A DNA stretch of 64,000 bases from Pedobacter faecalis. Its GTDB lineage: Bacteria; Bacteroidota; Bacteroidia; Sphingobacteriales; Sphingobacteriaceae. Position 1 is the stretch's first letter. Each line of letters starts with the position of its first letter. A model generated the notes under the pieces. That model searched no databases, was not told where the DNA came from, and saw only the letters and a program-made list of their open reading frames with translations. Position numbers and translations under genes: made by a program. Location of the stretch: positions 186,001-250,000 of the forward strand of contig NZ_JARXOW010000001.1 in NCBI RefSeq assembly GCF_030182585.1. Direction: 5' to 3'. Of the stretch, positions 19,114-28,639 are shown in pieces.

Positions 19114-19121
19114 TACATTTG
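19114..19121 (+). promoter_or_regulatory. Candidate -7 element of the B12 locus
   Basis: TACATTTG matches TAnnTTTG exactly and lies a few bases before the first riboswitch helix, as expected if transcription starts near 19127. No good TTG is found at the -33 distance. Confidence 0.5.
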
Positions 19122-19126
19122 CCTCG

Positions 19127-19300
19127 CTTTTGGTTTCTTTATGATGAATAAAGAATTAAAAGGGAATACGGTGTAATTCCGTAACTGTCCCGCAGCTGTA
19201 AGCTCTGTAACGGTGTTCAAATCACGCCACTGAATTGTCGACAGGCAAATTGGGAAGGCAGAATATCCGGGAGTAAGTCAGAAGACCTGCCTTTAGCCAT
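19127..19300 (+). ncRNA. Cobalamin riboswitch
   Basis: The leader contains the conserved core of a cobalamin aptamer: AGGGAATACGGTG followed by AACTGTCCCGCAGCTGTAA (about 19161-19201), GCCACTG at 19226-19232, GGGAAGGC around 19252, and the B12 box GAGTAAGTCAGAAGACCTGC at 19271-19290. The aptamer is complete. It lies upstream of the BtuB-like receptor gene, which it should shut off when cobalamin is abundant. The stretch from about 19300 to the ATG at 19459 would hold the expression platform; no clear intrinsic terminator was seen there, so translational control is possible. Confidence 0.95.
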
Positions 19301-19458
19301 ATGATTTCATAGCTTTCGGGGATTGAAGCTAGGAGTGAGTGCTGTATTATTATTGTATTTCATTTCCTTGATCTAACTGTTTGCTGTGGGTAATACTCAC
19401 AACAAAATTATTGTTGTTGTTTATTGTGTTTTGCAAATGATTAAACAAACAATACAGA

Positions 19459-21324
19459 ATGAAAATTAAGAACAAAGTGTGGATGGCAGCCGGATTCGGC
19501 GTTCTTCAACTCGGTATCGCTGGTGCCGCATCAGCGCAGGACGCCATCAGGCTGGATAGCGTGGTCATCTCTGCGACCAAAAACGACCAGAAGCAGTCGC
19601 AAACCGGAAAAGTGGTCACGATAATCGGAAGCGAGGTACTGGAGCGCAGCCATGGCAAGAGCCTGGTCGAACTGCTCAATGAACAGGCAGGCATTGTGGT
19701 AGGCGGGGCAACAGGAAACGTCGGGTTAAATAAAAGTCTTTTCTTTAGGGGAGCAGCGAGTGTTCACGCCGTTGTTCTGATCGACGGAATCCTGGCAAGC
19801 AATCCTTCTGGGACCGGTTCATCATTTGATCTCAGAATGTTTTCTATCGACCAGATCGATCACATTGAAATCATCAAGGGCGGACAATCTACCATCTATG
19901 GATCGGATGCGATAGCCGGTGTAATCAACATCATCACCAAAAAAGGTACTAAAGCTGGCAACAGTGTGTATGGTGTAGCCAGCTACGGCAGCTATGAAAC
20001 TTATAAGGGAACCATTGGCATCAGTGCCAACGTAGAACAGTTTTCTTACAACATCGCATTCACACAGGGCAAGACAGATGGCATTTCCGAAGCCGCTAAC
20101 CCGGTCGGCAATACCGATGCGTTCGATAAGGATGGCAATAAGACGGGCGCCGTTAACGCAAACTTTGCGTTTCAGGCGACAGATAAGTTCAGTGTAAGTC
20201 CCTTTTTGCGCTACTTTTATGGGCATTACGATTTTGACGCCGGTTCATTTGCCGACAATCCGTCGAACAATTTCAAACTTGAGCGGTTCAACGGGGGGTT
20301 GAACACCAAGTACGATTTCGGCCGGGGTAAAATAAATCTCAATTACAGTCACGAGAAATCCAAGATCAACACACTGAATCAGTACGGAACAAGCAATTCA
20401 GTAGGGTTTATGGATCTGGTCGATCTGTTCTACAATCAAAAGGTTGGTCAGAAGGTTGATGTTCTTGTGGGTCTGGACAACCGGGCTACAAGGTTAAACG
20501 CAAATTCCAAGGCTCAAACAAATCTCTTCAGTACCTATGCCTCTGTGTTTTTGCACGATCTGAGCATCTTTAATCTCGAAGTAGGCGGAAGATATAATAA
20601 GCACAAAGAATACGGCGAGAACTATACCTACAACATCACACCCTCAGTAAACGTATTGGAAGGTGTCAAACTCTTTGGTACCGTTTCCACATCGTTTAAG
20701 GCGCCAACGCTTGAAAACCTTTTCGGTGCTTTTGGAGCCAATCTGGATCTGGTACCGGAAAAGTCGAAAAACTATGAGGCGGGTTTTAACCTCAGCTTTG
20801 TTGAGGATCGCTACAGTTTGCGCGCAGCAGGTTTTAAGCGCGACTTAACCAATGCCATCGTATATGGAAATGTTGGCTATGTGAACCAGGCCAACCAGGA
20901 AGTAAAAGGATTTGAGATTGAGCCGGCGGTCAGATTGTCTGTGTTTAATATCAACGGATATTATGCCTTTGTTGAAGGTACAGAGTTCAACTTCATCACC
21001 AACCAGGTTTCCGATTATCTGTTGCGCAGGCCAAAACACATTTTTGGAATTAATGCTGGCGTTCAGGCCACTAACGCACTGTATCTGAGTAGCTCATTCA
21101 AATACAACGGTGCCCGTACCGACGGAAATTTTAGCGATTATGTGATCGAAGATCTGCCGGCGTATAAAGTTTTAAATTTCTACGGTGAATATGCGTTATT
21201 GAACAAACGCCTGAAAATATTTGCCGACCTGAAGAATATCCTCGATGAGCAATACCAGGAGTTTTACGGGTATAACAGCATGGGCTTTAATATGAATGCC
21301 GGTTTAAGTTTTTTTATTAAGTAA
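19459..21324 (+). CDS. btuB: BtuB-like TonB-dependent cobalamin receptor
   Basis: This is a 621-residue outer-membrane receptor. The signal peptide ends at ASAQ (residue 27), followed by a TonB-box-like DSVVISATKN, a plug domain (about 45-150, with IEIIKGGQSTIYGSDAIAGVINI) and a beta-barrel ending in a C-terminal FFIK strand. The length is close to E. coli BtuB (about 600), much shorter than SusC-type receptors. The cobalamin riboswitch directly upstream and the BtuF-like gene downstream identify cobalamin or a related corrinoid as the likely cargo. DUF6580 follows 34 nt after the stop. Confidence 0.92.
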   Translation: MKIKNKVWMAAGFGVLQLGIAGAASAQDAIRLDSVVISATKNDQKQSQTGKVVTIIGSEVLERSHGKSLVELLNEQAGIVVGGATGNVGLNKSLFFRGAASVHAVVLIDGILASNPSGTGSSFDLRMFSIDQIDHIEIIKGGQSTIYGSDAIAGVINIITKKGTKAGNSVYGVASYGSYETYKGTIGISANVEQFSYNIAFTQGKTDGISEAANPVGNTDAFDKDGNKTGAVNANFAFQATDKFSVSPFLRYFYGHYDFDAGSFADNPSNNFKLERFNGGLNTKYDFGRGKINLNYSHEKSKINTLNQYGTSNSVGFMDLVDLFYNQKVGQKVDVLVGLDNRATRLNANSKAQTNLFSTYASVFLHDLSIFNLEVGGRYNKHKEYGENYTYNITPSVNVLEGVKLFGTVSTSFKAPTLENLFGAFGANLDLVPEKSKNYEAGFNLSFVEDRYSLRAAGFKRDLTNAIVYGNVGYVNQANQEVKGFEIEPAVRLSVFNINGYYAFVEGTEFNFITNQVSDYLLRRPKHIFGINAGVQATNALYLSSSFKYNGARTDGNFSDYVIEDLPAYKVLNFYGEYALLNKRLKIFADLKNILDEQYQEFYGYNSMGFNMNAGLSFFIK

Positions 21325-21358
21325 GAATTGATATTTTTACAACTCAAAAGCTATACAT

Positions 21359-21949
21359 ATGTCATTAGAAAAATTCAACATCAGAAATTCTATCTTGATC
21401 CTGATCGTTATTGCTGCGGCAGCTACACGGTTTCTCCATCTGGATAGTTTTACAAGTTGGTTTAATTTTACGCCGATTGGCGCTATAGCGATGTTTGGCG
21501 GCGTTTATTACGCAGATAAACTTAAGGCATACTTTATTCCCTTTATAACCCTGCTGGCCAGCGATCTTATCTTGAATTATACCGTCTACTATCATATCGA
21601 CGGCAAATTCGACGCTGCAGTGTGGACATACATCAGCTTTATGCTGATGGTAACAGTCGGCCGCTACATGAAACAGGTGAGCGTTCTGTCGGTTGTTGCC
21701 GGGTCCTTTGCATGTGTTTTTATTCACTGGATTGTTTCGGATATCAGCGTGGTCATGATGGAGGGTTCTATGTACCCAAGGACTTTCAACGGTTATCTGC
21801 TGGCCCTGTGGAATGCGATTCCCTGGGAACGCAACCTGCTGGTAAGCACACTTGCCTACAGTGCGGTGATGTTCGGCGGATTTGAGTATGCTAAAGCAAA
21901 GTTTCCTTCACTGAGGTATGCTCCGGGTGCCGGATTGCAGCATGCTTAA
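21359..21949 (+). CDS. DUF6580-type membrane protein, candidate B12 transporter component
   Basis: The 196-residue product has about five hydrophobic segments (near 10-27, 38-57, 62-80, 87-105 and 112-135, with another near 158-178) and no signal peptide. It resembles the family called DUF6580, a putative transport protein in Bacteroidota; I recall the family but could not search it. The size and helix count recall S-components of ECF vitamin transporters. It is 34 nt downstream of btuB under the same riboswitch, and no BtuC/BtuD permease genes are present here, so inner-membrane corrinoid transport is an attractive but unproven role. A terminator follows at 21970. Confidence 0.75.
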   Translation: MSLEKFNIRNSILILIVIAAAATRFLHLDSFTSWFNFTPIGAIAMFGGVYYADKLKAYFIPFITLLASDLILNYTVYYHIDGKFDAAVWTYISFMLMVTVGRYMKQVSVLSVVAGSFACVFIHWIVSDISVVMMEGSMYPRTFNGYLLALWNAIPWERNLLVSTLAYSAVMFGGFEYAKAKFPSLRYAPGAGLQHA

Positions 21950-21969
21950 CATAATCTTATTCGTGTTAC

Positions 21970-22001
21970 AACCCCTTTTGCAAGTCGCAGAAGGGGTTTT
22001 T
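21970..22001 (+). terminator. Intrinsic terminator after DUF6580 gene
   Basis: AACCCCTT-TTGC (from 21970) pairs with GC-GAAGGGGTT (ending near 21998) and is followed by a T run, TTTTT. It ends about 12 nt before the BtuF-like ATG, so it either ends the btuB transcript or attenuates readthrough. Confidence 0.82.
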
Positions 22002-22012
22002 AATTCCAAGTT

Positions 22013-22948
22013 ATGAAAGTCGTCTCATTTTTACCCGCTGCTACCAAGATGATCTACGATATGGGTTTGGAGGAATATCTCTGTGGGGTTACCTTCGAGT
22101 GCCCCAAAGAGGCGTCTGCCCAGCCAAAGATCGTCCGCTGCGTGCTCGAGGGCAACAATTACTCCAGTGCCGAAATTGATCGTATCTTCTCGGCATCAAA
22201 AGCGCAGGGCAAAAGCTTGTATTGGGTCGACGAAGAGTTGCTCGAGCAAATACAGCCCGATGTGATCTTCACCCAGGACACCTGCGAGGTCTGTCTCATC
22301 GACACCGCCTGCACCTTGTCTTCCATTGCCAACCTCAGCAAGCAGCCTCAGCTCGTTACCTTAAGTCCGGATAGCCTGAACGATGTGTTCGACTGTGCAT
22401 TAAAAATCGGCCAGACACTCGGGAGGGAAGAAGTGGCGCTTCGCTATCTGGCCGCGTTAAAAAGCCGGATGGACGATATTATCGACACGTTGAGGCTTCA
22501 CCGCGCTCCTCTAAGAAGGGTTATGCTCATGGAGTGGATCGAGCCCATTTATAACTGCGGGCACTGGATTCCTTTCCAGATTGCAGCAGCCGGAGGCGTA
22601 GATATGCTGTCTAACCCCGGGGGCGATTCGATTGTCAACAAGTGGGAAAAGATACAGCAGTACAATCCTGAAGTTTTGGTTATCGCACCCTGCGGTTTCG
22701 ATGTGCAGCGCAGTTTTCAGGAAATGTCGCTCCTAACCTCAAAGCCAGGCTGGGATGAACTCGAGGCTGTCAAGAACCAGGCGGTCTACCTGGCCGACTT
22801 TGATATGTTCACTCAGCCTAGCGTAGGCACTTTGGTTCAGGGCATCGAATCCCTTGCCGAAATGTTTCACCCGGAGATCTTTGGCGGCGATCCATCCGCT
22901 GAAAAGCGGTTTGTTAATTTTTACCACCAGGAACTTGTTCTCCGATAA
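22013..22948 (+). CDS. BtuF-like corrinoid-binding protein without signal peptide
   Basis: The 311-residue product has the fold signature of ABC-type cobalamin-binding proteins: VVSFLPAATKMIYDMGLEE at the start, QPDVIFTQDTCEVC near 84-97, and a W-E-K-I-Q-Q-Y-N-P-E-V-L-V-I-A-P segment near 211-226. It starts directly at the first strand and lacks both a Sec signal and a lipobox, unlike E. coli BtuF, so it may remain cytoplasmic. Its position in the B12 locus supports corrinoid binding. The next gene begins inside its 3' end. Whether it serves transport, salvage or sensing cannot be told from the sequence. Confidence 0.83.
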   Translation: MKVVSFLPAATKMIYDMGLEEYLCGVTFECPKEASAQPKIVRCVLEGNNYSSAEIDRIFSASKAQGKSLYWVDEELLEQIQPDVIFTQDTCEVCLIDTACTLSSIANLSKQPQLVTLSPDSLNDVFDCALKIGQTLGREEVALRYLAALKSRMDDIIDTLRLHRAPLRRVMLMEWIEPIYNCGHWIPFQIAAAGGVDMLSNPGGDSIVNKWEKIQQYNPEVLVIAPCGFDVQRSFQEMSLLTSKPGWDELEAVKNQAVYLADFDMFTQPSVGTLVQGIESLAEMFHPEIFGGDPSAEKRFVNFYHQELVLR

Positions 22949-23639
22949 GCCGCAAATAACCAAAAGCGTTTTCAACTGGAGCGGGGGCAAAGACAGCACA
23001 CTTGCGCTTCACTATGTGTTGCAAGACCCAACCATACAGGTCGACTGCCTCCTCACGACGGTTAATGATGGTCTCGACCGTGTATCCATGCATGGGCTGC
23101 GGACCTCCTTGCTGATCAGACAGGCAGAAAGCATTGGAATCAGACTTCATCAGGTCCGCCTCCCGGAAATGCCTGGGATGGATGTCTACGAACGGGAAAT
23201 GCGCCTTCACTTGAATCGTTTGCGGTCAAGCGGCATCGGACAGGCCATTTATGGCGATATATTTCTGGAAGACCTGAAAGCCTATCGGGAGAAGCAACTG
23301 GCTGAATTGAACATAACCGCGAAATTCCCTTTATGGAAGCAAGACACCAGGACCTTGCTGGAAACCTTTATCAATCTTGGCTATAGAACCATCGTTGTTT
23401 GTGCGCAGGAGCGACTGCAGGATTTTTGCGGGCGGGTGATCGACCATGATTTTCTAAATGAACTACCCGCTGATATTGATCCCTGTGGCGAGAACGGCGA
23501 GTTCCATACCTTCGTTTTTGATGGCCCGATTTTTAAAGAGCCCATCAGGTTCCGCACAGGCGAACGAGTGTTCAAGAGCTATGAAACGGCAACGGTAAAG
23601 AATGCCGGATACTGGTTCCTAGATCTGCTCGAGTGCTAG
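22935..23639 (+). CDS. DUF71/COG2102 PP-loop ATPase, probable B12-salvage enzyme
   Basis: The family converts substrates by adenylation; the PP-loop SGGKDS is near the N-terminus (NWSGGKDSTLALHY) and the C-terminal half contains GENGEFHTFVFDGP, typical of diphthine-ammonia ligase (Dph6) relatives. Bacteria do not make diphthamide; comparative genomics has proposed a B12-salvage role for bacterial members found beside btu genes, and this context fits exactly. No ATG lies close before the PP-loop. The TTG at 22935 gives 234 residues and a 14-nt overlap with the BtuF-like gene; the ATG at 22854 would overlap by 95 nt. The 3' end overlaps the convergent STN gene by 21 nt. Confidence 0.82.
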   Translation: MFSDKPQITKSVFNWSGGKDSTLALHYVLQDPTIQVDCLLTTVNDGLDRVSMHGLRTSLLIRQAESIGIRLHQVRLPEMPGMDVYEREMRLHLNRLRSSGIGQAIYGDIFLEDLKAYREKQLAELNITAKFPLWKQDTRTLLETFINLGYRTIVVCAQERLQDFCGRVIDHDFLNELPADIDPCGENGEFHTFVFDGPIFKEPIRFRTGERVFKSYETATVKNAGYWFLDLLEC

Positions 23640-25286
23640 GGTAAGCCCTACATTCCAGCCCAACCAGCCTTTCACTTTTGAGGAAAAGTCGTGCCGGCGA
23701 TCGGGATACACCTGTTGACTGTAGTTTTTCGCAGCACCGCCAACCGGCGCATTGCTCACATAGACCGAGTAAGCCGGGCCCGCCACAACAGCAAGACCTT
23801 TAATAACCTGATACTGTGCGCTCAATCCAAAGCGGTTCAGAATGTTCGAGTAATCCCAATTGCCCAGATACAGGTACTGTGAGGTCAGTTCCATTGCTGC
23901 CGAAAACCTCGGTCCGAAAATGAAGTCGTGACCAAAACCCAGTCCGGCGCTGAGCACCTTGGCCGTATCCGAGAAGTTTTTGCCGGCCAGCAGAATATTA
24001 TACAATTTAGCATTGCCCAGTTTCAGCGCCAGGTTCGCGTTTATGATTTCGTTGGCCGACACACTGATCCGGTGATAACCGTGATGTACGTAATTGAGCA
24101 GGCCGATGCTGTAGCCTTCATTGCGACTGGAGATATTCAGCAAGCCGATCTGCAGGCCGCTCACATCAGTCGCGTAATTGACCAGACCAGCTATCTGGAC
24201 TCCGTCCAGTTTCTTCACGGTAAGGTTAACCAGGCCCGCCACCTGTGTCCCTTTCATGTCTTTCTGCACAGCGTTGACCAGTCCCGCTACCTGGACGCCT
24301 GAAACGCCTGTCCGCACATCGTTGATCAGACCGGCGACCTGCACGCCCCTGACCGAACCGCCAACGCCGTTAAACAAGCCTGCTACCTGCACCTTATTTA
24401 CATCGCCTTTGGTAATGTTGAACAGTCCGCCCACTTCCACGCCATCCACGCCTGCGGTATATCCGCCCAGAACATTTAGTGAACCCTTATTGATCACCTG
24501 TCCGCTCATGCTCCCATGCGAACTCAAACCTGGTATTAATGAAGCCTGAAAGGGCATATTCGCCAGAAAATCCGGGATATTCAGGCTCTGAAGCTTTTGT
24601 TTGGATGACAGGAAAAACCTGCTGAGTCCCAGGTTTTCAATACGGTTTAAAAAGCTGGCCGACTCATCTGCTTCAGTACGGTACCCCTCTGGTTTCACCT
24701 TGATATCTGCCAGAAAGAACAGGGATGTATCCCGGTAGTTCTCCCGGCTGGCAGTGAGAATCACGTTGGAGTGATTGCCCTTAAAGCGTAACCTAAAATA
24801 GCCATCCTCGTCTGTTAAAGCCGACTGCAGTAGCCGCTTTTCATACACGCTGGCTTTCGATAGCCTGGCACCTGTAGATGCATCGACCACGTAACCGCTG
24901 ATCTGGTAGTGCGACTCGTTCTGCGCGATGTTCTCCGGCTCAATCGTCAGCCGGTTTGCCGCATACCTTAAAATAATATGTTCTGCGATTTCCTTGTATT
25001 CCACCGTTCCCTCAAAGAGCCGGTCGAGCACATCACGCACCGGCATCTGATTTACCTGAATGCTCACCAAACTATCGCGGCGGAAAAGGCGTCCGCCATA
25101 AGAGAAGTAAAAGCCGCCCGCCTTGCTCATCTGCTCAAGCACACGTACAACTGGTTCGTTGCTGACATTCAGACTCAGCTGCTTATCCAGGTTGCCACGA
25201 TACCGTACAACAGCCGATTGCGCATGTACCAGCGCCGTAGCCAACAGGGCATAAACGAGCAAAAAAAGCGTCAGGCGTAGTTTCAT
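23619..25286 (-). CDS. Exported STN / carboxypeptidase-regulatory / 16-residue-repeat surface protein
   Basis: The 555-residue product has a signal peptide (1-22), a secretin/TonB short N-terminal (STN) domain (about 30-110, with VLEQMSKAGGFYFSYGG), a carboxypeptidase-like regulatory domain (about 128-205, YQISGYVVDASTG), then tandem 15-16-residue repeats of the type VQVAGLVNxxxxxxxG (about 278-385) and a C-terminal strand-rich segment (about 390-555) resembling an outer-membrane barrel. It is the last gene of the sigma/FecR operon, overlapping FecR by 4 nt. In typical systems this slot is a SusC-type receptor with an N-terminal STN; here the receptor body is replaced by the repeat and barrel. 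The repeats resemble those annotated as LA_2272-type surface repeats. Ligand unknown. Confidence 0.82.
   Translation of the reverse strand: MKLRLTLFLLVYALLATALVHAQSAVVRYRGNLDKQLSLNVSNEPVVRVLEQMSKAGGFYFSYGGRLFRRDSLVSIQVNQMPVRDVLDRLFEGTVEYKEIAEHIILRYAANRLTIEPENIAQNESHYQISGYVVDASTGARLSKASVYEKRLLQSALTDEDGYFRLRFKGNHSNVILTASRENYRDTSLFFLADIKVKPEGYRTEADESASFLNRIENLGLSRFFLSSKQKLQSLNIPDFLANMPFQASLIPGLSSHGSMSGQVINKGSLNVLGGYTAGVDGVEVGGLFNITKGDVNKVQVAGLFNGVGGSVRGVQVAGLINDVRTGVSGVQVAGLVNAVQKDMKGTQVAGLVNLTVKKLDGVQIAGLVNYATDVSGLQIGLLNISSRNEGYSIGLLNYVHHGYHRISVSANEIINANLALKLGNAKLYNILLAGKNFSDTAKVLSAGLGFGHDFIFGPRFSAAMELTSQYLYLGNWDYSNILNRFGLSAQYQVIKGLAVVAGPAYSVYVSNAPVGGAAKNYSQQVYPDRRHDFSSKVKGWLGWNVGLTLALEQI
24130..24455 (-). 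repeat. Tandem 16-residue protein repeats (xQVAGLVN type)
   Basis: At least six consecutive units of 15-16 residues with the core [VT]Q[VI]AGL[VIF]N and a closing glycine are encoded here, about 48 nt each. The regular period suggests a beta-solenoid or stacked strand structure. The DNA copies have diverged while the protein core is kept, which indicates old duplications under selection. Confidence 0.85.
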
Positions 25287-26263
25287 TCTAGAAGTTTAGA
25301 CAACAGGTACTGCTTTCCGTTACGCTCCATCTTTAAGCCCAGGGTCTCGCAAACGATCCGCAGGTTGTCTTCCAAGGGTGTGTCCGGTCGCAAGGTAATA
25401 CTGATCTGTTCCCTGGCCGTAGCCTCATCGCTGATCTCAATCTGTGCTTCATAGGCCTCGTTCAGCACATCAAGGAGTCGCCCAAGCGGTATGTTATCGG
25501 CGACAAACTGCTTACTGCGGTAGTAATTATATAAGGAATCTGTGCTGGCCGATTTGCGTAGTTCGCCCGACGCAGCACTGATCAGCACCTTCTCACCCCG
25601 GCGCAGTTCCAGCTGGCTTTGGCCTCGGGAGACACGCACAATGCCGCTTTCAACGATCACCTCTGTCTCATTTCCCCGGTGCTTCACATTAAAAGAAGTG
25701 CCCACCACCAAAACCGAAACCTTGTCCACATCGATCACAAAAGGCCTCGCCCGGTCTGGCGCTACCTCGAAAAACACATCTCCCTCTTTAAGCCGCACAC
25801 TGCGATTGTCGGCAAAATCGGCCGCATAGCTAAGCGAACTGTTCTTGTTCAAGGTAATTACCGAACCATCAGGAAGTTTTTCCCGGCGCACATCCGCCTG
25901 CGCCACCACATCCGTGTAGCCCGAAGGGCCAAGCAGACTGTAGACAAGCCAAATTCCAACAACTGCAACCAGCGCTGCAGCTACCCGTATCCATGTGCCT
26001 GCAAATGAAGGCCTGACTTTCAGAAAAGGAACTTGTCGCGATTCAGAATTTCCTTCAGTGGCGCGCGACTTAAACCTGATCCATGCTTCATCTGCATCGG
26101 GCCTGGCTGATGCACTTAAACTTTTGCTTGCCGTCCATATCTTTTCAAAGGCAGCAAACCTGGAACGGTTTGCTTCCGATTGCGCAAGCCATTCCTCCAC
26201 TGCGATCCGTTCAGCTTCAGCGGCCTCATTCAGCAGATATTTGATCAGCAATTCATCTTCCAT
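25283..26263 (-). CDS. FecR-family anti-sigma factor
   Basis: The product has 326 residues from the ATG at 26263; an upstream in-frame ATG at 26305 would overlap the sigma gene. It has a cytoplasmic N-terminus that should hold the sigma factor (EELLIKY-like start, WLAQSEANRSRF), one membrane helix (about 92-110), a FecR domain (about 130-230, with LPDGSVITLNKNSSL and VGTSFNVKHR) and a C-terminal DUF4974 segment (about 255-326). In this family the periplasmic part receives a signal from an outer-membrane STN protein. It starts 10 nt after the sigma gene stop and overlaps the STN gene by 4 nt, a typical regulatory unit. Confidence 0.93.
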   Translation of the reverse strand: MEDELLIKYLLNEAAEAERIAVEEWLAQSEANRSRFAAFEKIWTASKSLSASARPDADEAWIRFKSRATEGNSESRQVPFLKVRPSFAGTWIRVAAALVAVVGIWLVYSLLGPSGYTDVVAQADVRREKLPDGSVITLNKNSSLSYAADFADNRSVRLKEGDVFFEVAPDRARPFVIDVDKVSVLVVGTSFNVKHRGNETEVIVESGIVRVSRGQSQLELRRGEKVLISAASGELRKSASTDSLYNYYRSKQFVADNIPLGRLLDVLNEAYEAQIEISDEATAREQISITLRPDTPLEDNLRIVCETLGLKMERNGKQYLLSKLLE

Positions 26264-26273
26264 AGCCCGGTTC

Positions 26274-26843
26274 CTAATTAAAAAAGTCCCTGTAATAAAC
26301 CGCAAAAGCGACCACGAATACCGTTATAAAATCAGCCAGTTTCAGCCTAAGCGTTCTCAGGGCCTTACCCATCTGGTTTTCAACTGTCTTTACCGACAGG
26401 CCCAGTCGCTCGGCAATCTCTTTATATTTCAGATCCTCATAGCGGCTCAACTGAAATATGGTGCGGCAAGCCTCGGGCAGTTCATTCAGGGCTTCGGTAA
26501 GCCGCATCTGCAATTCCGACAGCTCTGCTTTCGCAGAGGCCGGCTCCTGCATCTTGTTCATGCTGTGCGCGGCATAGTCCTGATATTTCAATTTAATCTT
26601 TTCGTGCTTCAGATAATTCATGCTGTCGTGATAAACGCATTTATACAAATAAGCCCGCACTGCCGTCTCAATATTCAGCAGTTCGCGCTTCTCCCAAAAT
26701 TTAAGGAACATCTGCTGCACAATCTCCTCCGCCACATCGCTGTCCTGGAGGATAACCTGTGCATAACTATGCAGCTCCCCGTAATGCTTTTTAAACAACT
26801 GTTCAAAAGCAACATCATCATATACGCTGGCACGCGGATTCAC
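26274..26843 (-). CDS. ECF-type RNA polymerase sigma factor, probable GTG start
   Basis: Region 2 (about 8-85: YDDVAFEQLFKKHYGELHSYA, EEIVQQMFLKFWEKR) and region 4 (about 120-175: LNELPEACRTIFQLSRYEDL, YKEIAERLGLSVKTVENQ) define a sigma-70 ECF factor of the Bacteroidetes FecI-like group. The open frame extends upstream to 27110 but that part overlaps the GIN gene in another frame and has no sigma homology. The GTG at 26843 gives 189 residues, the normal length; a TTG at about 26882 is an alternative. A hydrophobic C-terminal tail (FITVFVVAFAVYY) is unusual. It is directly upstream of the FecR gene that should restrain it. Confidence 0.88.
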   Translation of the reverse strand: MNPRASVYDDVAFEQLFKKHYGELHSYAQVILQDSDVAEEIVQQMFLKFWEKRELLNIETAVRAYLYKCVYHDSMNYLKHEKIKLKYQDYAAHSMNKMQEPASAKAELSELQMRLTEALNELPEACRTIFQLSRYEDLKYKEIAERLGLSVKTVENQMGKALRTLRLKLADFITVFVVAFAVYYRDFFN

Positions 26844-26919
26844 GTCAATTAAATGGGGCTCAAAATATTTAAGCCCCAAATATACCAGTTTCTTTTTATG
26901 CTGATGCCATGCAACAAGT

Positions 26920-27576
26920 TTAGTCGCGGTGCTTAAGCACCTTGCCTGAGCCGCTAACCTCTGCATCAACCTGCGGATTGCCGTTATAATATATCTTTCC
27001 GCTTCCGCTGATGCGGGCCTTAAGGCGGTTGTACACCGTAATCTCCACCTCACCGCTGCCCGAAACTTCCACATCGGCATCCTCGGCACGCAAAGCTTCA
27101 AGGTCGGCATTACCCGAACCGGATACGCTTACCCGCGCATTTTCCGCTTCAATGGTGCGCTCCAGGTCGACCTCCCCAGAACCGCTCACAGACACCCTGA
27201 ACTCATCGACTGCCGGGAAAGCTCCTGTTATATCAATCTCGCCGCTGCCGCTGGCAGATACATGGTCGATAAGCGGGAGGGTTACGGAAACCTGCAGGTC
27301 GTCGTGACGCACGTTCACGTCGTCGTACTGCAGATACAAGATTCCGCCGCGTACTTCCGTTTCGAAATGCGGGATCAGGTTGCTCGAGCCCTTAATAACC
27401 ACCCTGTATTCTGTGCCGTAACTAATCTGTACGTCGGTTGCGCCATTTGCGCTTACGCCGGTAAACTCGTCCAAATTCCTGGTTTCTGAAGTCCGCTCGC
27501 CATTGGCCGTTAGCCTGTCTTTTGTGCATGACATAAGTGATAAACCGATAAATGCTGATAAAAGTAAATGTTTCAT
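26920..27576 (-). CDS. Head-GIN-domain (DUF2807) lipoprotein
   Basis: The 218-residue product has a lipoprotein signal with lipobox LMSC at 13-16. The rest is a putative auto-transporter adhesin head GIN domain, a beta-rich fold with repeated SGSGE/D steps (ASGSGEIDI, VSGSGEVDL, VSGSGNADL, VSGSGEVEI, ISGSGKIYY). Such proteins are probably exposed at the outer membrane; their function is poorly known. It is 28 nt after the repeat protein and 76 nt before the sigma gene on the same strand, so it probably belongs to the surface-signalling operon. Confidence 0.9.
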   Translation of the reverse strand: MKHLLLSAFIGLSLMSCTKDRLTANGERTSETRNLDEFTGVSANGATDVQISYGTEYRVVIKGSSNLIPHFETEVRGGILYLQYDDVNVRHDDLQVSVTLPLIDHVSASGSGEIDITGAFPAVDEFRVSVSGSGEVDLERTIEAENARVSVSGSGNADLEALRAEDADVEVSGSGEVEITVYNRLKARISGSGKIYYNGNPQVDAEVSGSGKVLKHRD

Positions 27577-27604
27577 GATGTTGTATTAAATAGATGAAAT
27601 AATG

Positions 27605-28588
27605 TTAAAACCGTATATGCAAGCCAGCCGTATAACCCAGGTAAAGTGCCCTGAAATCCTCGTCCCAGTCGCCATTCCATTCCTTCAGATAACGCTTGGT
27701 CAGGTTAACCCCCTCGGCCGTATCCGTGCTGATGAAATGAAGGGCGGGGCCGGCAAAAAGCTCTATGCTCTGACCAATCTTAACGGCTGGCATCACCCGA
27801 AACGAGGCCTTAAAATATTCGCCCTCCTCAAAATCCTCCAGCATCCCCGAAACGAGTTCCGTGTTCAGTCGGAAGACCGGCGTACGCAGCAAATGGGCAC
27901 CCAAGCCGGCCTCGAAGGCATACACCGCATCATCGTTTTTGAAGTTATAACCCAGGCCGATGATGCCGTACATCACCTTGCCGCCCGATCTGAAGCCCGC
28001 CATCAGCGTCTGATTCTCGTCGATCGTGAGGCCTACGCTCTTCTCGCCCTGTCTGATGATGTTGATGATCCCGATGGGACAATCGCTGCTGTCGGCAATG
28101 TTCACAAAACCGGCAATCTGCGCGCCCTTTACTTTCCGTGCCACGTTTATAAAACCCGCGATCTGCGAACCATTTACATCACGGGCGGTGTTCACAAAGC
28201 CCGCAACCTGCAGGCCCTTCATATCGCCTGTGGCCACGTTGCCGAAGCCAGCAAATGCCGCATGATCGCCGCCGCCCGAGGTGTTCAGAAAACCTGCGAA
28301 CAAGCCCCCGTTGGCTTTTTTGCCGATATGATTAGAGAATCCGGCAAACTGTGCCCCATTGGCATTACCCCTTACCACGTTCGAAAATCCGGCAAAGGAG
28401 GGGCCCTGTTCTTCGGCCGAAACGCCTGCAAAAAGGTGGATGGAAAGGTTGTTCGTATCCAGCGGCGCATGTGTGCCATTGGTGCTCAAAGGATACACAA
28501 TGCCCAGATGCACCTTGCCAGGAAGCTGATGCTGCGCGGCCGATGTAAATGCGGCCGCCATTAAAATAGATGTTAAGATTGATCTCAT
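27605..28588 (-). CDS. Exported 15-16-residue-repeat surface protein
   Basis: The 327-residue product has a signal peptide (about 1-18, ending SAAQ) and, from about 60 to 175, tandem units of 15-16 residues with the core xxFAGFxN or xQ[VI]AGF[VI]N (for example AQFAGFSN, SQIAGFIN, AQIAGFVN). A strand-rich C-terminal part (about 180-327) ends in HIRF, as in outer-membrane barrels. It is built like the C-terminal half of the STN protein at 23619-25286 but lacks the STN and regulatory domains. As first gene of the operon it may be a partner or alternative form of that protein. Function unknown. Confidence 0.8.
   Translation of the reverse strand: MRSILTSILMAAAFTSAAQHQLPGKVHLGIVYPLSTNGTHAPLDTNNLSIHLFAGVSAEEQGPSFAGFSNVVRGNANGAQFAGFSNHIGKKANGGLFAGFLNTSGGGDHAAFAGFGNVATGDMKGLQVAGFVNTARDVNGSQIAGFINVARKVKGAQIAGFVNIADSSDCPIGIINIIRQGEKSVGLTIDENQTLMAGFRSGGKVMYGIIGLGYNFKNDDAVYAFEAGLGAHLLRTPVFRLNTELVSGMLEDFEEGEYFKASFRVMPAVKIGQSIELFAGPALHFISTDTAEGVNLTKRYLKEWNGDWDEDFRALYLGYTAGLHIRF
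28060..28405 (-). repeat. Tandem 15-16-residue protein repeats (xQIAGFVN type)
   Basis: About seven units with core F/V-A-G-F-x-N are encoded, the same architecture as at 24130-24455 but with Phe instead of Leu after Gly. The two blocks are probably related by gene duplication within the operon. Confidence 0.8.
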
Positions 28589-28639
28589 GTTGTCTTGTTT
28601 TAAACTAAGACAGCCAGATTTCGATCTACCCCTACGCGC

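Follow-up and report, generated by a model that had tools for sequence, protein, structure and literature searches.

The window analysed here is a 64,000-nucleotide stretch of Pedobacter faecalis (contig NZ_JARXOW010000001.1, positions 186,001 to 250,000), and the system under study is an operon of five genes on its minus strand. In order, these encode an LA_2272-type repeat protein (gene 1), a GIN-domain lipoprotein (gene 2), an extracytoplasmic function (ECF) sigma factor (gene 3), a FecR-type anti-sigma factor (gene 4) and a protein that joins an STN domain to repeats and a predicted barrel (gene 5). The genes are separated by gaps of 28, 76 and 10 nucleotides (nt), followed by an overlap of 4 nt. 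These coordinates and distances reproduced in full those of the original prediction, which had been made from the sequence alone. The sigma factor is FecI-like and adjoins the FecR-type anti-sigma factor, as identified by Pfam and NCBIfam searches. All features are collected in Table 1.

Table 1. Features of the operon, in window coordinates (aa, amino acids).
Feature	Positions	Strand	Evidence
Gene 1, STN-less LA_2272-type repeat protein, signal peptide, predicted C-terminal 8-strand outer-membrane barrel, 327 aa	27605..28588	-	
Gene 1 repeat block, residues ~53-178, solenoid-like in model	28055..28432	-	
Gene 1 predicted 8-strand barrel, residues 180-327	27608..28051	-	structure model
Gene 2, GIN-domain (DUF2807, PF10988) lipoprotein, 218 aa, LSLMSC lipobox	26920..27576	-	Pfam 120.7 bits; lipobox read from sequence
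Gene 3, ECF sigma factor (TIGR02985), GTG start	26274..26843	-	171.8 bits, cut-off 126.4
Gene 4, FecR anti-sigma factor, FecR and FecR_C domains, single membrane helix (by eye)	25283..26263	-	PF04773 68.6 bits; PF16344 30.6 bits
FecR_C domain of gene 4, residues 253-319, putative docking site for STN	25307..25507	-	PF16344
Gene 5, STN-repeat-barrel protein, 555 aa, putative transducer	23619..25286	-	domain searches, model fold match, homology to gene 1
Gene 5 STN domain, model residues 31-111	24954..25196	-	
Gene 5 CarboxypepD_reg-like domain, residues 129-184	24735..24902	-	PF13715, 31 bits
Gene 5 LA_2272-type repeats, residues ~276-388, 7 AGLVN-type units	24123..24461	-	NF047436; units counted by regular expression
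Gene 5 predicted C-terminal barrel, residues ~404-555	23622..24077	-	
Predicted ECF promoter of the operon, TAGGGGTA-N14-TGTCTTA	28606..28634	-	exact core match 28609-28633; conserved before gene 1 in relatives

In gene 5 the STN domain is followed by a CarboxypepD_reg-like domain (CarbopepD_reg_2, 31 bits, cut-off 32.2) and by repeats that scored above the cut-off of the LA_2272 model NF047436 (36.6 bits against 25). It had been claimed that this STN protein carries no TonB-receptor domains. Plug (PF07715) and TonB barrel (PF00593), the domains that would contradict the claim, were sought in Pfam and NCBIfam at E ≤ 1 and neither was found. The C-terminal half was found to consist of LA_2272 repeats and, by homology, a barrel, and not of a TolA/TonB-like C-terminal domain. 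When the STN part was modelled, its best fold matches were the signalling domains of anti-sigma proteins and TonB receptors. Among the gene-5 proteins of relatives (loci are designated by L numbers), the STN domain exceeded the Pfam cut-off of 28.4 bits in L003 (28.7 bits), L057 (33) and L060 (32.7), and stayed below it in L008 (22.0 bits).

The P. faecalis genome gave 33 STN matches, 27 of them within frames longer than 1000 aa. The six in shorter frames comprised two proteins placed, by position, like FecR directly before a TonB receptor, two frames with plug or TonB-barrel matches, and two proteins with neither, namely gene 5 and a 487-aa protein encoded elsewhere. The latter combines STN and CarboxypepD_reg, gave no plug or TonB-barrel match, and belongs to a second ECF sigma/FecR set (L010:2979-6167; C1:890978-894166 of the genome), whose sigma factor falls outside the operon sigma clade described below. 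Neighbouring genes encode a CHU_C type IX secretion-signal protein and one that matches Phenol_MetA_deg weakly.

No Pfam match was obtained for gene 1, and its score against NF047436 was below the cut-off (14.7 bits against 25). An hhalign comparison aligned it with the part of gene 5 that runs from about residue 250 to the C terminus (probability 99.9%, E 3e-34). Because of this coverage, gene 1 is recognised as a homologue of the repeat-plus-barrel half of gene 5, devoid of STN and CarboxypepD_reg, which confirms that an STN-less homologue is present in the same operon. A short barrel had likewise been proposed, and the structure model of gene 1 gave one, with a last loop of 23 residues. From the barrel loop lengths, the repeats are predicted to lie on the periplasmic side; their placement at the cell surface, as first suggested, is therefore doubtful. 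Gene 5 is itself predicted to be bound to the outer membrane through a small, closed barrel. Since its STN domain would sit on a barrel-held repeat protein and not on a TonB-dependent transporter, we consider it probable that a barrel-anchored, non-transporting repeat protein replaces the TonB transducer here, and that the set informs on the state of the outer membrane, not on ligand import.

Ordinary cell-surface signalling, in which the repeats or barrel loops of a VreA-like receptor would bind a ligand without transporting it, appears improbable. VreA provides a precedent (available text of PMC2729926) and the 23-residue loop of the gene-1 barrel model would suit this explanation, but no ligand-binding domain was recognised by Pfam or NCBIfam, the repeats are predicted to be periplasmic, and their number varies from 3 to 11 among gene-5 proteins.

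The recurrence of the gene set was evaluated at three levels. The gene-5 protein is 98% identical to its Pedobacter deserti counterpart, and the seven named Pedobacter loci all contained gene 1, sigma, FecR and gene 5, the last three being adjacent in every case; GIN was present in six. Across the phylum, a gene-5 profile search matched at least 162 of 394 genomes at E ≤ 0.001 (three candidates scored per genome), many of the matches listed being STN-less repeat proteins or lying within frames longer than 1000 aa. Distant loci were taken from the best 17 genomes other than P. faecalis, plus three weaker, STN-less ones. Sigma, FecR and gene 5 were adjacent and co-oriented in 15 of the 17, and the three STN-less loci (L061-L063) gave no sigma or FecR match. 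Within the genus, 65 of 99 genomes matched gene 5 at E ≤ 1e-40, and at least two separate STN-repeat places were present in 22 (by our row count). Twenty further genus loci, 12 orthologous (held out) and 8 paralogous, contained the adjacent, co-oriented triad in 19 cases; in the exception, L172, gene 5 runs convergently to the sigma and FecR genes. Such recurrence of the set within the phylum is far beyond chance.

A fatty-acid hydroxylase fused to DUF4833 lies between gene 1/GIN and sigma in five of the seven named Pedobacter operons (L003 and L005-L008; by Pfam on L003, by profile on the others) and was tagged in 10 of the 12 held-out loci (three short); it is missing in P. faecalis. The insertion is a hint that lipids are modified as one of the outputs. 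Repeat proteins of the LA_2272 type, about 400-540 aa long and lacking an STN match, occur at L061-L063 and in many genomes of family f24, possibly as an independent use of the repeat.

A sigma tree was built with the 30 best of the 49 TIGR02985 matches of the P. faecalis genome, one being the sigma of the window. In this tree, 21 of 22 operon sigmas formed one clade (99/97), apart from the 29 other ECF sigmas of the genome, a placement that supports the distinctness of this sigma factor. With the held-out and paralogous loci added, 40 of 41 operon sigmas grouped in one clade (94/98; bootstrap unsettled). FecR and STN distances correlated with r = 0.90 over 41 loci, shared species history included and uncorrected, the best of 500 permutations reaching 0.34. 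This parallel divergence is consistent with co-evolution of the two proteins. It also bears on the possibility that gene 5 is not a signalling partner but a co-transcribed envelope protein, with sigma and FecR answering another cue. The sub-threshold STN domain of the window member and a homologue (L044) with neither sigma nor FecR nearby would fit such a bystander, which is nonetheless very unlikely, as gene 5 adjoins FecR in nearly all loci, its STN part has a matching fold, and it diverges in parallel with FecR.

A shared promoter, TAGGGGTA-N14-TGTCnTA, is predicted from the upstream regions and is new here. The motif was found before gene 1 (13 of 13 loci) and before most sigma genes that come first in their operon, in some cases with one change; in the window, TGTC ends 20 nt before the gene-1 ATG. 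A scan of 24 loci (212 kb, near-copy L002 left out) with at most one mismatch and a spacer of 14 detected 36 sense sites in 22 loci and no antisense site. Twenty shuffles gave 0-2 sites each at this spacer, and with spacers of other lengths the counts were 0-5 on the sense and 0-1 on the antisense strand. Because the motif had been derived from part of these loci, 12 previously unused ones were tested. It was present in all 12, as an exact copy in six and with one mismatch in the other six, and an in-frame gene-1 ATG follows 19-22 nt after its end in every case; in half of them it overlaps (four) or follows (two) the first start codon of the open frame. Five of the eight paralogous loci also carried a site, and antisense sites were absent from all 20 new loci. 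A second copy was noted 3' of gene 5 at L171:10235 (oriented coordinates), at the edge of the stretch.

At the scale of the whole P. faecalis genome (3.63 Mb), two exact copies of AGGGGTA-N14-TGTC were detected, that of the operon (28609-28633) and one inside an opposite-strand gene, the former being the only exact copy outside a gene. In 34 genomes, 45 exact copies were counted: 39 in the 17 with a full-length gene-5 protein, of which 16 were at operon loci, and 6 in the 17 that lacked a strong match. A reversed-pattern control gave 19 and 17 copies, and by this comparison the off-operon count is near background.

In L045, L166, L167 and L170, TGTA replaces TGTC, and the sigmas of these loci group with that of L165 (99/96; L166 and L167 are near-copies), where no motif site was found. 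Sigma and motif thus appear to change together, all four site-bearing members of this subclade carrying TGTA. These five loci represent another type of STN-repeat operon; Pfam identified DUF6134 in L045, L165 and L166, the three searched, and L166 also has an epimerase and a short-chain dehydrogenase.

The genes behind the motif in relatives include STN-less repeat genes, GIN genes (directly so in L056 and L058) and STN-less TonB-receptor-like genes. The last encode a CarboxypepD_reg/Plug-like protein of 777-803 aa, which was found in 7 of the 17 distant loci with weak Plug matches (21-28 bits, cut-off 23.9); six of the seven lie right behind the motif, one exact and five with one mismatch. 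The opposition to TonB receptors is therefore incomplete: gene 5 gave no plug or TonB-barrel match, but in these seven loci a Plug-like, STN-less protein is present as well. The transducer could accordingly be split, the STN-repeat protein serving as an adaptor for a separate STN-less receptor of the TonB-dependent type whose imported or bound ligand is sensed in trans. Besides the distant loci, this alternative can draw on an unlinked orthologue in genome G190 whose listed start lies 161 nt after an exact motif, on the Plug-like protein of the Pedobacter paralogue locus L169, and on full-length homologues elsewhere in the L007 and L008 genomes (753 and 787 bits, where the five best score 1124-1358). 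However, the Plug-like gene was tagged in none of the 12 held-out type-I Pedobacter loci, the match in the P. faecalis genome was no more than partial (E 1.8e-26, covering profile positions 1-378 of 784), and none was obtained in the L003 genome at E ≤ 1e-20. The gene resembles a regulated output rather than a partner that the system needs, and a split transducer is rather unlikely.

Among the 23 off-operon exact sites in the 17 genomes with a full-length gene-5 protein, six were chosen because a gene seemed to follow. Five were located shortly before a likely envelope gene (the unlinked Plug-like homologue, three similar-looking signal-peptide proteins of about 210 aa and a DUF4097 lipoprotein) and the sixth inside a gene. 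At 1.5-kb range (30 of the 45 copies viewed), the remaining off-operon copies were mostly within genes or had no gene of at least 100 aa within 300 nt. The outputs resemble envelope and lipid genes, and envelope sensing is therefore favoured.

In published cell-surface signalling systems, the STN domain of an outer-membrane partner attaches to the anti-sigma factor at its periplasmic end, and the signalling domain of FoxA guards FoxR against proteolysis involving Prc and RseP (available text of PMC11637429). By analogy, if gene 5 senses the outer membrane, its STN domain would dock on the C-terminal domain of FecR and shield it from proteolysis. Loss or misplacement of the barrel-anchored protein, through disturbance of the outer membrane or displacement, for instance by the gene-1 product, would expose FecR, and its proteolysis would release the sigma factor. 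The freed sigma would read TAGGGGTA-N14-TGTCnTA, raising production of the STN-less repeat protein, of the GIN lipoprotein and of the set as a whole, and newly made STN protein would then shut the response down. Gene 1 shares the barrel half and probably the outer-membrane site and should be unable to dock on FecR; it may thus be both effector and feedback competitor. A bolder version, conceivable but rather unlikely, is a two-protein, envelope-spanning dead-man's switch. Here a beta-solenoid mast of variable length, standing on the outer-membrane barrel, would keep the STN plug on FecR, and if this hold were lost, because the outer membrane detaches, the spacing is wrong or the barrel fails to assemble, the dedicated sigma would fire and rebuild the outer membrane.

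Several observations weigh against sensing of the outer membrane through gene 5, the Plug-like genes of the distant loci among them. The STN domain of the window member scored 23.6 bits, below the cut-off, and STN was unreported at E ≤ 0.01 in L044, L166 and L171. The full model of gene 5 was poor (mean predicted local distance difference test score, pLDDT, 36.9), and for this reason its barrel rests on homology to gene 1. L044 lacks a sigma/FecR pair nearby, and L060 has FecR with no sigma call. The L059 sigma fell outside the clade in both trees, and both motif hits of this locus are doubtful, lying within predicted frames. No motif site was found at L165, L168 or L169, and a spacer of 11 gave five sense sites, exceeding the shuffle counts at spacer 14. 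Correlations with sigma were lower than that between FecR and STN (sigma-FecR r = 0.68, sigma-STN r = 0.77; two sigma rows were faulty), and the latter contains the species history mentioned above.

The operon works like several known systems, yet matches none of them in all defining features. FecIRA and FoxIRA share with it an ECF sigma, a FecR-type anti-sigma, an STN protein and a promoter-like motif before their own genes, but its STN protein differs, with a small predicted barrel and repeats and no plug or TonB-barrel match. PUMA3 of Pseudomonas aeruginosa (VreA-VreI-VreR) likewise places an STN protein that lacks a TonB beta-barrel within a sigma/anti-sigma set; the available text of PMC2729926 describes VreA as a largely soluble, probably periplasmic protein whose C-terminal domain is TolA-like, whereas the operon protein has repeats and a predicted outer-membrane barrel. 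In the same phylum, the Dma family (Dma1 and Dma2) also ties anti-sigma control to a beta-barrel domain without a transporter. According to the accessible part of PMC13088901, Dma is a single chain of anti-sigma domain, membrane helix, disordered tether and barrel, working with ECF21 sigmas; in the operon, anti-sigma and barrel are in separate genes, 4 and 5, presumably linked by STN docking. Although the gene-5 repeats score above the cut-off of the LA_2272 family, the NF047436 model describes a repeat of 30 positions whose name says no more than surface repeat-containing, and it includes neither an STN fusion nor a link to a sigma factor. SusC and other STN-bearing receptors of ECF-controlled loci (accessible text of PMC7782687; L009 and L013 in P. 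faecalis) share STN and CarboxypepD_reg, and the STN-first order of gene 5 is that of L009 and L013. Unlike gene 5, the SusC-type proteins are TonB-dependent receptors with a plug and/or TonB barrel.

The operon suggests that a conserved, widespread lineage, equipped with a sigma clade and promoter of its own, has separated STN-based signalling from transport. This would represent a second design, beside Dma, by which Bacteroidota may watch the outer membrane. The defined motif allows target genes to be proposed from sequence, and the 22 genus genomes with two or more STN-repeat genes make promoter and partner specificity comparable within one cell.

Within the window, a plus-strand run (19114-23639) converges on the operon. 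In it, a cobalamin riboswitch (Rfam, 110.4 bits) precedes a gene that looks like a TonB receptor, one for a 196-aa membrane protein and two others.

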